Part shown: positions 2,136 to 14,511 of the stretch, piece after piece
How the letters are laid out: each line of letters begins with the position of its first letter
How positions within the stretch are numbered: position 1 is the first letter of the stretch
NCBI GenBank assembly: GCA_000010565.1
Contig: AP009389.1
Span: 744,001-808,000 of the forward strand
Source of the DNA: Pelotomaculum thermopropionicum SI
GTDB taxonomy: Bacteria > Bacillota > Desulfotomaculia > Desulfotomaculales > Pelotomaculaceae
Direction of reading: 5' to 3'
Length of the DNA: 64,000 bases
The notes under the pieces: generated by a model
What the model was told of the DNA's origin: nothing
Database searches by the model: none
Seen by the model: only the letters and a program-made list of their open reading frames with translations
Made by a program: the position numbers and the translations under genes

Positions 2136-3266
2136 ATGAAAATGATTGCTATTGCCGGGGGGAAAATTCTTACGATGGCCGGGCGCCCCGTAGACAAGGG
2201 CACGGTGCTTCTGGACGGGAGCAAAATTGCAGGGGTGGAGGAGGGTGTGGTTGTACCCGCGGGCGCCGAAGTGGTCGATGCTTCCGGCAAGGTGGTAATG
2301 CCGGGGATGATTGACGCCCACAGCCACCTCGGGGTTGTTGAGGAGATTTACCGCGAGGAAGGGGACGACGGCAACGAGACAACCGATCCGGTTACCCCCC
2401 ACCTGCGGGCCATTGATGCGGTAAACCCCTTTGACCTGGGGTTCCGGGACGCTCTCGCCGGGGGAGTGACGACGGTGGTAACCGGTCCTGGCAGCGCCAA
2501 CGTCATCGGCGGCGAGATGGCGGTCATAAAGACCAGCGGCACGGTGGTTGACGAAATGATCGTGCGCTTTCCGGCCGGCCTGAAGGCCGCCCTCGGCGAG
2601 AATCCCAAGCGCAGTTACGGCCGGGACAAAAAGTCGCCGGCTACGCGCATGGCGTCCGCAGCAATCCTGCGAGAGGCGCTTGCGCGGGCCCAGAACTATT
2701 TAAAGAAAGATTCACCGGAGCGGGATCTGAGGATGGAGGCCCTGGCCAGGGTTTTGAAGAGGGAGGTGCCCCTGAGGGTGCACGCCCACCGTGCAGACGA
2801 CATTATGACTGCCGTGCGGATCGCGGAGGAATTCGGGGTTGACCTGGTTATCGAGCACTGTACCGAAGGCCGCCTGGTAGCCAGGCAACTGGCCGAAAAA
2901 GGCATTCCGGCGGTAATCGGGCCGGTCATAACAAACAGGGCCAAGGTGGAGATGCAGGGAATAAGCCTGGAAACGGCGGGCATTCTGGCCGGGGCGGGAG
3001 TGAGGTTTGCAATTATGACCGATCACCCGGTCGTGCCGGTTCAATACCTGGCCGCTTCGGCCGCGCTGGCCGTGAAGGGGGGCCTTTCCGTGGAGCATGC
3101 CCTCCGGGCTGTGACCATTGACGCCGCTGCCATCCTGGGGCTGGAGAAGCGCCTGGGAAGCATTGAGCCGGGCAAAGATGCCGACATCGTCATTTGGGAC
3201 CGCCATCCTCTGGATATTTCTGCCCGGGTGGAGCAGGTTTACATTGACGGGGCAAGAGTGTTATAA
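2136..3266 (+). CDS. Metal-dependent amidohydrolase
   Basis: A 376-residue TIM-barrel amidohydrolase of the imidazolonepropionase/adenine-deaminase-like superfamily. The metal-binding motif DAHSHLG lies at about residues 60-66. Further probable ligands appear in VHAHRADD, IEHCTE and the Asp of MTDHPV. The C-terminal LGLEKRLGSIEPGKDADIVI is the usual composite-domain return strand. Substrate cannot be told; the close family is often annotated only as amidohydrolase, and imidazolonepropionase activity is not supported because no hut genes are near. Start ATG 2136 follows GGAAAGGAAG; ATG 2142 is also possible. It sits alone between the toxin-antitoxin pair and the spo0F-like gene. Confidence 0.85.
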   Translation: MKMIAIAGGKILTMAGRPVDKGTVLLDGSKIAGVEEGVVVPAGAEVVDASGKVVMPGMIDAHSHLGVVEEIYREEGDDGNETTDPVTPHLRAIDAVNPFDLGFRDALAGGVTTVVTGPGSANVIGGEMAVIKTSGTVVDEMIVRFPAGLKAALGENPKRSYGRDKKSPATRMASAAILREALARAQNYLKKDSPERDLRMEALARVLKREVPLRVHAHRADDIMTAVRIAEEFGVDLVIEHCTEGRLVARQLAEKGIPAVIGPVITNRAKVEMQGISLETAGILAGAGVRFAIMTDHPVVPVQYLAASAALAVKGGLSVEHALRAVTIDAAAILGLEKRLGSIEPGKDADIVIWDRHPLDISARVEQVYIDGARVL

Positions 3267-3314: not shown

Positions 3315-3323
3315 TTTGTTAAA
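3315..3323 (+). promoter_or_regulatory. Candidate Spo0A box
   Basis: TTTGTTAAA differs at one base from the TTTGTCRAA consensus and lies immediately upstream of the sigma-H-like -35. The mismatch is at a usually conserved C, so the call is tentative. Confidence 0.3.
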
Positions 3324-3327
3324 TAAA

Positions 3328-3356
3328 AAAGGAAATTGTATACACGCGTCGAATAT
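3328..3356 (+). promoter_or_regulatory. Sigma-H-type promoter of the spo0F-like gene
   Basis: AAAGGAAAT (3328-3336), 11-bp spacer, GTCGAATAT (3348-3356). This matches RNAGGAWWW-N11/12-RNNGAATWW, the Bacillus sigma-H consensus, at every position. Bacillus spo0F is itself transcribed by sigma-H. Confidence 0.7.
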
Positions 3357-3422
3357 GTTATTGTCCTGGGAACCTTATACTTTAATGTTATAACGTGTCA
3401 TTTTTTGTCGTGGGGTGCAGGT

Positions 3423-3836
3423 ATGAGGCGAAAGCCAATGGAAATCCTTATCGTCGACGATCAGGCGGGAGTGCGTTATTTGTTGGAAATTATCGTGAGG
3501 GAGGCGGGGCACCGGGCACATACGGCGCAAAACGGGATGGAGGCCGTTTCACTGGCGCTTTCAATTCGCCCCCAGCTTATCTTCATGGATGTACGAATGC
3601 CCGTAATGGGCGGCCTGGAGGCGCTGGGCAAGATTAAAGCCGCGGCTCCCGAAATCGATGTTATTATTATGACGGCTTACGGCTCGGAAGAGACCGTATC
3701 CCAGGCTATGGAACTGGGAGCAATGTGCTGCCTGGCCAAGCCGTTTGATGTAAATGAAATTAAAGAAATTATTCTGGAATACATGTGGAGAAAGGCAAAC
3801 TCTTCCTCTTCCAGCATAACTGCTGCCAGCATGTAG
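3423..3836 (+). CDS. spo0F: Spo0F-like single-domain response regulator
   Basis: A 137-residue receiver domain without an output domain. Visible landmarks are the acidic pair D12-D13 (ILIVDDQAG), the phospho-acceptor D56 (IFMDVRMP), T84 (IIMTAYG) and K106 (LAKPFD). The LIVDDQ, MTAYGSEE and KPFDVNEI segments resemble Bacillus Spo0F closely; Spo0F passes phosphate from sporulation kinases to Spo0B and on to Spo0A. Start ATG 3423 follows GGGGTGCAGG; ATG 3438 is an alternative. The frame is open upstream to 3336, but that region is the promoter. The C-terminal serine-rich tail is longer than in Bacillus. No cognate kinase is adjacent, although an orphan kinase lies at 13.5 kb. Chemotaxis CheY-like function is less likely given the sigma-H promoter. 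Confidence 0.8.
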   Translation: MRRKPMEILIVDDQAGVRYLLEIIVREAGHRAHTAQNGMEAVSLALSIRPQLIFMDVRMPVMGGLEALGKIKAAAPEIDVIIMTAYGSEETVSQAMELGAMCCLAKPFDVNEIKEIILEYMWRKANSSSSSITAASM

Positions 3837-3983
3837 GAAAAAGCCTTTAGCTGCATAGGCGGTATTCTCCGGCACCCTGAATATGGCAGAGTGCAGTTTT
3901 AAGGACGGTCTGTGCCCTCCAGAGGGTTGGGGGGCTTTTGTTATTTCGGAGCATTTCCGGCTTTTTTTGCCGCCGGGGCGGTG

Positions 3984-4055: not shown

Positions 4056-4535
4056 TTGCCGGTAATAAAAACTTTTTCGCCGGAGGAGACCGCCGGGGTG
4101 GGTGAGAAACTGGCCGCACTGTTGCGGCCTGGGGATGTAATCTGCCTGAACGGCGATCTCGGCGCCGGCAAAACCAGGCTGGCGCAGGGCGTGGCCCGCG
4201 GCCTCGGCATAGAAGGCCCGGTGACCAGTCCTACTTTCACCTTAATTAACGAATATCAGGGCGGGCTGACCCTTTACCACATAGACGTCTATCGCCTTGA
4301 CAGCCCCGCGGAAATGGAAGATCTGGGCTGTGCGGAGTATTTTTACGGTGAAGGCGTTACCCTGGTGGAATGGGCCGATAAGGTAAAGGACCTGCTTCCA
4401 GGCGAAAGGCTTGATATATACATAAAAAGGAGCCCGGAAGGCGAAGACGTCCGGGAAATTATCGCGGTGCCGCGGGGAGAAAGATACCGGTACCTGGCCG
4501 AGGAGTTGACCAAAGTTGTACGTGCTGGGGATTGA
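4056..4535 (+). CDS. tsaE: tRNA t6A37 biosynthesis ATPase
   Basis: TsaE is the P-loop ATPase that works with TsaB and TsaD to place threonylcarbamoyl on A37 of ANN-decoding tRNAs. The Walker A motif GDLGAGKT is near residue 30, followed by the family signatures VTSPTFTLINEY and HIDVYRL, and VEWADK further on. At about 159 residues it has normal length. TTG 4056 is preferred because GAGG (4042-4045) lies at the right distance; a TTG at 4035 is in frame but lacks a ribosome site. The gene overlaps tsaB by 20 bases, so the two are translationally coupled. tsaD, which often follows rimI in Firmicutes, is absent here. Confidence 0.93.
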   Translation: MPVIKTFSPEETAGVGEKLAALLRPGDVICLNGDLGAGKTRLAQGVARGLGIEGPVTSPTFTLINEYQGGLTLYHIDVYRLDSPAEMEDLGCAEYFYGEGVTLVEWADKVKDLLPGERLDIYIKRSPEGEDVREIIAVPRGERYRYLAEELTKVVRAGD

Positions 4536-13150: not shown

Positions 13151-13448
13151 TGAAGAGCTGGATCAAATTTTGCAGAGCGTTGTCCGGATTGAACTGCTGA
13201 CCTTCTTCCAGGCCAATCCGCATACCCGCGACACTGCTGACGGTTTGGCCCTCCGCCTGCACCGTCCCCGGCACCAGGTGGAAATGGCCCTCAATGCCCT
13301 TAGCGCCCTCGGCATACTGGAAATGTCGAGTCGAAGGGTGACCATTTACCGCCTTCGCAACAGCGATTTGATCACCAGTTACTTACAGGAACAGGCCGGA
13401 AAGGACGTATCCGGGCCGACCTGCAGGCAGGATTGGACCTTTGGGTAA
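13134..13448 (+). CDS. Winged-helix transcriptional regulator
   Basis: A 104-residue protein with a winged helix at residues 15-80. The segment DTADGLALRLHRPRHQVEMAL is the helix-turn-helix, and ILEMSSRRVTIYRL forms the wing. It belongs to the broad ArsR/MarR-like group, but no metal-binding signature is seen. GTG 13134 follows GGTGAGG at a good distance; the frame is open upstream but only as a shadow of the V4R gene. It overlaps the V4R gene by 17 bases and the kinase follows directly. Its target is unknown; the AT-rich promoter region at 9.9 kb is a candidate. Confidence 0.75.
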   Translation: MAGKINEELDQILQSVVRIELLTFFQANPHTRDTADGLALRLHRPRHQVEMALNALSALGILEMSSRRVTIYRLRNSDLITSYLQEQAGKDVSGPTCRQDWTFG

Positions 13449-13461
13449 GGGAGGCGGTTGT

Positions 13462-14511
13462 ATGGCAGATTTAACAGATGATTGGTTGCGCCTGGCCGCT
13501 GAACAGATGCCGCTGGGTTTGCTGGCAGTTGACCGGGAGGGCCGGGTCAGGGTCTTTAACAGGGTATTGTCCGGGTTGACCGGATTAAGGCAGGATGAAG
13601 TCCTGGAGCGGCCGTTCCGGAAAGTCTTTGATTGCCGGGAGCCCGGCCTTAACAAACTTTTGCAAACCCTTGCCACCGGCAGGGAATTCAAGGATTTGCA
13701 GCCCCGTGCCATCATCCCGAACCTGGAACTTGCCAATTACACGGCGAGCACACATGCCATATCCGGTGAAGGCGGCCGTACAGCAGGTGCAATGGCCCTG
13801 TTCCTGCCGGCGGGGCGCCTGCAGGAACTGGAAAACGCCGTTATTAAAGCCGAAAGGCTGGCCATTTTAGGGCAACTGGCTGCGGGAATGGTGCATGAAA
13901 TCAGGAACCCGCTCACGGTAATCGGCGGATTTATGCAATTATTACAAAAATTATTGGACGGTAATCCCAAGGAAAAGTATATCCACATAATTCTGGCCGA
14001 ATTGAAACACGTAAACAATCTGATTTCAGAATTTTTGCAACTGGCCAAGCCGGGCTGTTCCAGGCGGGCTCCTTGTTCGATTGAAAAATTAATCAAAGAC
14101 GTGGTTATGCTGGTGGAAAGCGAGGCGTACCTGCGCAAGCTGGAAATCGACCTGGCCGTAACAGGCGGCATTCCGCCTGTAATGGGAGACGGTGAACAGT
14201 TAAAACAGGTTTTCCTGAATTTCATTAAAAACTCCTTTGACGCTCTTTCCCCCGGCGGGAAACTGGTTTTGGAAACCGCCTGGGACAGGCGGGAAGGGTT
14301 CGTGCGGATTGTATTCAAAGACAATGGGGCCGGCATGGACGAAGAAACATTAAAGAGCATATTTAATCCCTTTTTTACCACCAAGGAGAACGGTACCGGC
14401 CTGGGCATGTTCATAAACAAAAAAATTATTGACAATCACGGCGGCCGCATAGAGATTCAGAGCGAGCAGGGGAAGGGTACAACGGTAACGGTACTGTTGC
14501 CGGCAATTTAA
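13462..14511 (+). CDS. PAS-domain sensor histidine kinase (orphan)
   Basis: A 349-residue soluble kinase. A PAS domain spans about residues 9-118. The HisKA helix carries the phospho-acceptor H145 in GMVHEIRNPLT. The ATPase domain shows the N box (FLNFIKNSFDAL), the G1 box (DNGAGM) and GTGLGM. No membrane segment is present, so it senses an internal signal. The arrangement resembles Bacillus sporulation kinases such as KinA and KinE, and no response regulator follows it. The Spo0F-like protein at 3.4 kb is a possible partner, which is inference only. ATG 13462 is chosen behind GGGAGG; it is the last gene of the KaiC operon. Confidence 0.88.
   Translation: MADLTDDWLRLAAEQMPLGLLAVDREGRVRVFNRVLSGLTGLRQDEVLERPFRKVFDCREPGLNKLLQTLATGREFKDLQPRAIIPNLELANYTASTHAISGEGGRTAGAMALFLPAGRLQELENAVIKAERLAILGQLAAGMVHEIRNPLTVIGGFMQLLQKLLDGNPKEKYIHIILAELKHVNNLISEFLQLAKPGCSRRAPCSIEKLIKDVVMLVESEAYLRKLEIDLAVTGGIPPVMGDGEQLKQVFLNFIKNSFDALSPGGKLVLETAWDRREGFVRIVFKDNGAGMDEETLKSIFNPFFTTKENGTGLGMFINKKIIDNHGGRIEIQSEQGKGTTVTVLLPAI

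Follow-up and report, generated by a model that had tools for sequence, protein, structure and literature searches.

Pelotomaculum thermopropionicum SI, whose 3.03-Mb genome is a single contig of 3,025,375 bp, carries a second, separately conserved Spo0F-type receiver that by its sequence is divergent from the true Spo0F family. Its gene lies in the window, i.e., the whole stretch of 64,000 nucleotides analysed here (744,001 to 808,000 of the contig), and the family it represents is referred to below as group A. According to Pfam, Response_reg is the sole domain and covers residues 8–117, which is most of the 137-aa protein, so the receiver stands alone as Spo0F does. In a PDB sequence search, the top matches are B. 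subtilis Spo0F structures (E 6e-28), compared to 6e-19 for the best CheY. Pfam gives no Spo0F-specific assignment, and none of the 25 NCBIfam families shown matches above its cut-off. The coordinates of the receiver gene and of the surrounding features are collected in Table 1.

Table 1. Features of the receiver locus and of the nearby kinase gene (positions in the window).
Feature	Position	Strand	Evidence
Amidohydrolase gene, upstream conserved neighbour	2136..3266	+	Pfam; matched in 43/48 group-A loci
-35 element AGGAAAT of the sigma-H-type promoter	3330..3336	+	Sequence; AGGA-N17/18-GAA in 33/46 orthologous upstream regions
-10 element GTCGAAT; its first six bases (GTCGAA, 3348-3353) are also a Spo0A-box core	3348..3354	+	Sequence; orthologues
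Conserved leader block TGG..TTATACT..TGTTA	3367..3390	+	Alignment of 41 upstream regions
Second Spo0A-box-like site TTTGTCG, immediately 5' of the ribosome-binding site	3404..3410	+	TGTCG in orthologues
Stand-alone Spo0F-type receiver, 137 aa (group A), from its ATG to the end of the stop codon	3423..3836	+	Pfam, PDB sequence search, trees, residues
Terminator-like hairpin followed by TTTT	3914..3935	+	2 found in 901 bases vs 1.2 expected, weak
tsaE, downstream conserved neighbour	4056..4535	+	Pfam; neighbourhood comparison
Orphan HisKA kinase, Spo0F-type specificity residues TVGFQL	13441..14511	+	HisKA search, specificity residues

Receivers are abundant in this genome (28 matches), and the lack of a Spo0F-specific profile could speak for an ordinary CheY-like or NtrC-type receiver that happens to lie beside a chance sigma-H-like sequence. 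We consider this reading very improbable, as the trees part the window protein from the receivers of both kinds that were included. In a tree of 111 rows, 45 group-A receivers form one side of a branch (100/94). Another branch (99/93) has group A, B. subtilis Spo0F and 40 canonical-type receivers on one side and, on the other, 23 further receivers of the P. thermopropionicum genome, CheY-like ones and Spo0A among them, plus two NtrC-type receivers. Group A also holds (97/87) in a tree of 79 rows with more families, where two multi-domain receivers on long branches, both from other phyla, stand at the base of its branch and B. subtilis Spo0F, together with an fba-linked row and the Bacillus receiver L235, falls weakly on the canonical side (83/36). 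The support values of both trees are not settled, their roots are midpoints, and with about 120 alignment columns the deep branching order is uncertain. The CheY-like receiver encoded beside fliM in the same genome (L006) lies outside the Spo0F grouping in both trees; group A shares the stand-alone receiver fold with CheY but sits inside that grouping. The first-pass annotation had called the protein Spo0F-like and had allowed that it might instead group with CheY; the PDB search and the trees agree with the former, and the trees, with the receivers sampled, contradict the latter.

The gene is not, however, the genome's own spo0F. That gene is found at 2.94 Mb, between CTP synthase-S49 peptidase-Yip1 on one side and fructose-bisphosphate aldolase-transaldolase on the other, and its product is 40% identical to the window protein. 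This is the fba/tal/pyrG neighbourhood in which Davidson 2018 looked for Spo0F (PMC6136694); the window gene lies elsewhere and another receiver occupies that place. A presence search for canonical Spo0F scored 60/60 genomes at 1e-18, a count that is uninformative because other receivers match as well. A record titled Armatimonadetes (L237) likewise has a canonical spo0F, whose neighbours are yip1, fba, tal and rho; it is probably a misassigned contig in a bin named for another phylum.

In group A, the phosphorylation residues D10, D11, D54 and K104 are present in 46/46 proteins, position 82 is T in 43 and S in three, and P105 and F106 are again found in all 46. The Spo0F docking signature is likewise retained (Q12 in 44/46, G14 in 43/46, L18 in 44/46 and D107 in 45/46), so that group A shares with B. 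subtilis Spo0F the stand-alone architecture, the active site and the Q-x-G-[IV]-R-x-L-L and KPFD motifs. It differs from it by a separate clade, another gene neighbourhood and the loss of Glu21. The latter residue occurs in 31/31 syntenic canonical Spo0F proteins vs 0/46 in group A, where the position is never acidic (I 39, V 3, M 2, T 1, A 1). Position 21 was compared among the seven positions behind the specificity strings in Table 1 of Davidson 2018 (PMC6136694), of which the remaining ones are largely shared. Instead of the QGILEVD type with Glu21, the window protein reads QGVLIID. In the genome taken as Desulfotomaculum acetoxidans (G047), the fba-linked receiver (L082) has the published Dt0F string QGILEVD and the group-A receiver (L069) has QGVLIID. 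The split also extends beyond the order, with Glu21 in 16/16 fba-linked loci and in 0/12 of the group-A loci shown.

Two observations on other receivers bear on the sorting of these families. The Spo0F-like stand-alone receiver of Bacillus sp. FJAT-49711 (L235, 4001-4333) has Ala at position 21, and its 8.3-kb locus contains no match to fba, tal or pyrG. Although it served as a second Bacilli Spo0F in the 79-row tree, it is therefore unverified as a Spo0F and is a possible exception to a simple Glu21 rule. Eight further Spo0F-like stand-alone receivers (L083 of G047, L101, L102, L103, L109, L118, L121 and L123) lie outside both neighbourhoods and mostly combine Asn at position 12 (Arg in L083) with Glu at position 21. 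They possibly represent a third receiver type.

Position 21 of Spo0F is predicted to be a partner-choice site, and besides it 17 columns separate group A from canonical Spo0F (overlap under 0.15). Such a divergence could mean that group A is a sporulation-time receiver with an output of its own outside the phosphoryl route to Spo0A, fed by a different kinase and controlling a partner by binding. That the synteny of group A is independent of spo0F, outside the order as well, would fit such a role. We nevertheless regard it as improbable: the docking signature is retained at Q12, G14, L18 and KPFD, and the orphan HisKA kinases of the genome, described below, offer no candidate of another class.

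The control sequences upstream of the gene form a second line of evidence. The sigma-H consensus consists of AGGAWWT and RNNGAAT, 11 bp apart, and a Spo0A box is a TGTCGAA-type site; B. subtilis spo0F is under sigma-H control. The full-consensus promoter sequence reported by the first-pass annotation is indeed there, as AGGAAAT and GTCGAAT are separated by 11 bp. The Spo0A box that it placed nearby is present as well in the form of TTTGTCG, although a better core, GTCGAA, lies inside the -10 element. Taken alone, the single promoter match in the window is weak evidence, since AGGAWWT-N13-15-GAAT is found 85 times in the 3.03-Mb genome (vs 21 in the backward control), a frequency that would suit an ordinary receiver with a chance match. 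Eight of these 85 matches start with one repeated word, AGGAATTGAAAC (G000:C1 1990122-2025805), which is probably a CRISPR-type repeat array that inflates the count.

A chance match is rejected because the placement is conserved in orthologues. The full consensus AGGAWWT-N13-15-GAAT is not widely kept (6/47 orthologous upstream regions; 0.2 in simple shuffles) and AGGAWWT-N13-15-GAA is present in 18/46 (shuffle 0.52), but the core spacing AGGA-N17/18-GAA occurs 60–150 nt 5' of the DD codon in 33/46 group-A regions, compared to a mean of 0.56 and at most 2 in 50 dinucleotide shuffles; as the regions share descent, such counts are not independent events. Canonical clostridial Spo0F (Dt0F), which resides in the same genomes, has the core spacing too (19/31; shuffle 0.24). 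What sets the two apart is the Spo0A-type sequence. GTCGAA is found within 150 nt upstream in 29/46 group-A genes (shuffle 1.3) vs 2/31 canonical spo0F genes (0.3), and the joined form AGGA-N14/15-GTCGAA in 21/46 vs 0/31. TGTCG at -65 to -25, the region of the second site, occurs in 27/46 (shuffle mean 1.0) vs 0/31. The full TGTCGAA or its complement is present in 17/46 group-A regions; the window site reads CGTCGAA, and Spo0A binding to it is a prediction. Outside the order, the looser GGA-N16-18-GAA is found in 15/17 group-A loci and GTCGAA in 12/17, figures that stand without a shuffle control. Sigma-H-type promoter sequences are thus common to both receivers, and a Spo0A-box core inside the -10 element is a feature of group A only.

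In seven of the 46 group-A upstream regions (L036, L037, L038, L047, L048, L050 and L051) TTGCA-N17/18-TATAAT occurs, with GTCGAA in the spacer of six; L050 keeps an AGGA-N-GAA match besides. The six of these seven loci that were included in the 111-row tree form one clade (98/80), and a sigma-A promoter has apparently been swapped for the sigma-H promoter around the box in this subclade. The leader block downstream of the promoter is partly an inverted repeat in some relatives, most clearly in L081, and is possibly a further operator or second promoter element.

The gene had also been described as isolated. This may hold for its transcription, given the hairpin that follows it, though that signal is weak; in terms of gene order it does not hold, as the neighbours are conserved among group-A loci. 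Several relatives share the order ilvN, RHH, mazF, gatase, amidohydrolase, receiver, thiE, thiC, thiL-like, tsaE and tsaB, with the three thi genes standing between the receiver and tsaE. In the window, a ribbon-helix-helix gene followed by a PemK/MazF-type gene (1367-2013), probably a toxin-antitoxin pair, is kept beside the receiver locus in many relatives. In one relative (L078 4283-5890, genome G037) the group-A receiver is fused to ThiD2 and thiamine monophosphate synthase domains; the ThiE-type partner is a separate downstream gene in several others, and the fusion gave no functional lead.

Within the order, 47 of 60 genomes (own included) contain a group-A match with an E value of 2.4e-32 or lower, and synteny adds one more (G059). 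Group A was not found in the other 12, three of which are less than 90% complete. All 12 have a Spo0B-like match at 1e-6, and group A thus seems dispensable in genomes that have spo0F. Across 398 sampled genomes of the phylum, with the ten best candidates per genome scored, at least 31 genomes match at 1e-28, comprising 11 from the order and 20 from outside. Seventeen of these 20 have group-A neighbours and three are fba-linked. Among the candidates set aside, G094 and G325 proved to be fba-linked, and L318 (G418), fba-linked and with Glu21, is canonical. An fba-linked copy is also held by 15/17 out-of-order group-A genomes, and in G178 and G352 no canonical match was found at 1e-15.

The other parts of a phosphorelay are encoded in the same genome. 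Spo0B, which the first-pass annotation proposed to look for, is present: the genes for ribosomal proteins L21 and L27 are directly followed by one for a SPOB_a protein, and the gene after that resembles obg by eye. A genome devoid of Spo0B is thus ruled out. The specificity string of this Spo0B, QVGLQL, equals that of D. acetoxidans Spo0B in Table 1 of Davidson 2018 (PMC6136694). There is one Spo0A_C match, corresponding to Spo0A. Among 16 HisKA matches, four orphan kinases, defined by the absence of a receiver match within 10 kb, read TAGFQL, TVGFQL, TTGFQL and, by eye, TAGFQI; no orphan of another specificity class was seen in this survey of HisKA kinases, which counts against a separate input for group A. 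One of the four lies 10 kb from the receiver gene, has PAS matches just below the Pfam cut-off and is a possible phosphodonor of the window receiver. The earlier suggestion of a phosphorelay in this lineage was therefore right, given Spo0B, Spo0A and orphan sporulation-type kinases, but it is not new. The premise behind it, that Clostridia are devoid of Spo0F and Spo0B, is out of date: Davidson 2018 predicted Spo0F for 17 spore-forming clostridia and reconstituted the phosphorelay of D. acetoxidans in vitro (PMC6136694).

Our preferred reading, held tentatively and with a little less than even confidence, is that the Spo0 phosphorelay has in group A a further Spo0F-type receiver, not orthologous to spo0F, which serves as an intermediate in parallel to Spo0F or in its place. 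At the onset of sporulation, sigma-H would transcribe the group-A gene, whose expression would be tuned by Spo0A~P bound to the GTCGAA box of the -10 element and near the ribosome-binding site. The protein would be phosphorylated on Asp54 (Spo0F numbering) by the same orphan T-x-G-F-Q kinases that serve Spo0F, and would exchange the phosphoryl group with Spo0B; the loss of Glu21 would shift its partner preferences. It would thus act parallel to Spo0F and be able to replace it. We infer the transcription by sigma-H, the binding of Spo0A and every phosphotransfer step from the sequences described above.

The residue at position 21 also argues for caution. The Spo0A strings in Table 1 of Davidson 2018 have Glu or Asp there (PMC6136694), and since it is non-acidic in group A, the partner-choice site differs and exchange with Spo0B may be poor. 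The main rival builds on this point and sees group A as a phosphate sink or brake that takes phosphoryl groups from the sporulation kinases or from Spo0B~P and passes little on; Spo0A~P and sigma-H would then switch on a competitor, and the decision to sporulate would be delayed or sharpened by it. A complete active site combined with the loss of an acidic residue common to Spo0F and Spo0A fits such a role, a Spo0A-box core in the -10 element suits feedback, and the 12 of 60 genomes in which group A was not found are in line with it. We nonetheless judge it unlikely, owing to a genome in which canonical spo0F is lost while group A and Spo0B are retained, a pattern that a pure sink would not explain.

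In that genome (G036; L279 5-2349), spo0F is absent: directly after yip1 comes the 225-aa gene that otherwise stands between spo0F and fba. Searched with a canonical query at 1e-7, the genome yields 15 receivers, among which the only near stand-alone one belongs to group A; the next stand-alone receiver (128 aa) follows at E 4.6e-13, and no other close one was found by this search. Spo0B is open (191 aa) and Spo0A is present. The group-A string is QGILMVD, which differs from the B. subtilis string QGILEVD at position 21 only. G036 hence represents a lineage where spo0F has been lost without loss of Spo0B, and to judge from its gene content group A seems to have replaced Spo0F there. The retention of group A, Spo0B and Spo0A without spo0F favours a relay role over a sink, albeit from a single lineage with a 99% complete assembly in about 150 contigs.

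Parts of this picture have surfaced before. Passages of Galperin 2012 describe single-domain regulators of Peptococcaceae that, like group A, are nearer to Spo0F than to CheY, and judge them probably not related to sporulation, as Spo0B was thought absent (PMC3533761); the two families are not separated in the passages concerned. A 2024 review states, in the section concerned, that some Clostridia have a phosphorelay (PMC11210211). Two spo0F loci appear by automatic annotation in one Desulfofundulus genome, without discussion in the relevant part of that paper (PMC11206085). A term search of the main text of Davidson 2018 found neither 'Pelotomaculum' nor 'second Spo0F' (PMC6136694), and our literature searches found no published study of a second Spo0F family. 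What is new, as far as sequence can tell, is a second conserved Spo0F-type receiver that combines sigma-H/Spo0A-type control sequences with an altered partner-choice residue.

The Spo0 pathway is a model case for the question of how phosphorelays acquire and lose their components. A second receiver of this kind would be missed by a survey based on the fba/tal/pyrG neighbourhood, and these bacteria may run a two-receiver relay. A broader picture is possible, though on the doubtful side, in which the Spo0 phosphorelay has an ancient and promoter-coupled second arm. Group A would then be a separate Spo0F-type family kept in synteny across many families of the phylum, distinct at residue 21 and induced by sigma-H and Spo0A. 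Its members would route, store or drain phosphoryl groups and could step in if spo0F is lost. The D. acetoxidans relay was rebuilt with one Spo0F found by its neighbourhood, and the genome taken as that species also has the second receiver. Whether the latter feeds, drains or replaces Spo0F can therefore be tested with existing proteins.
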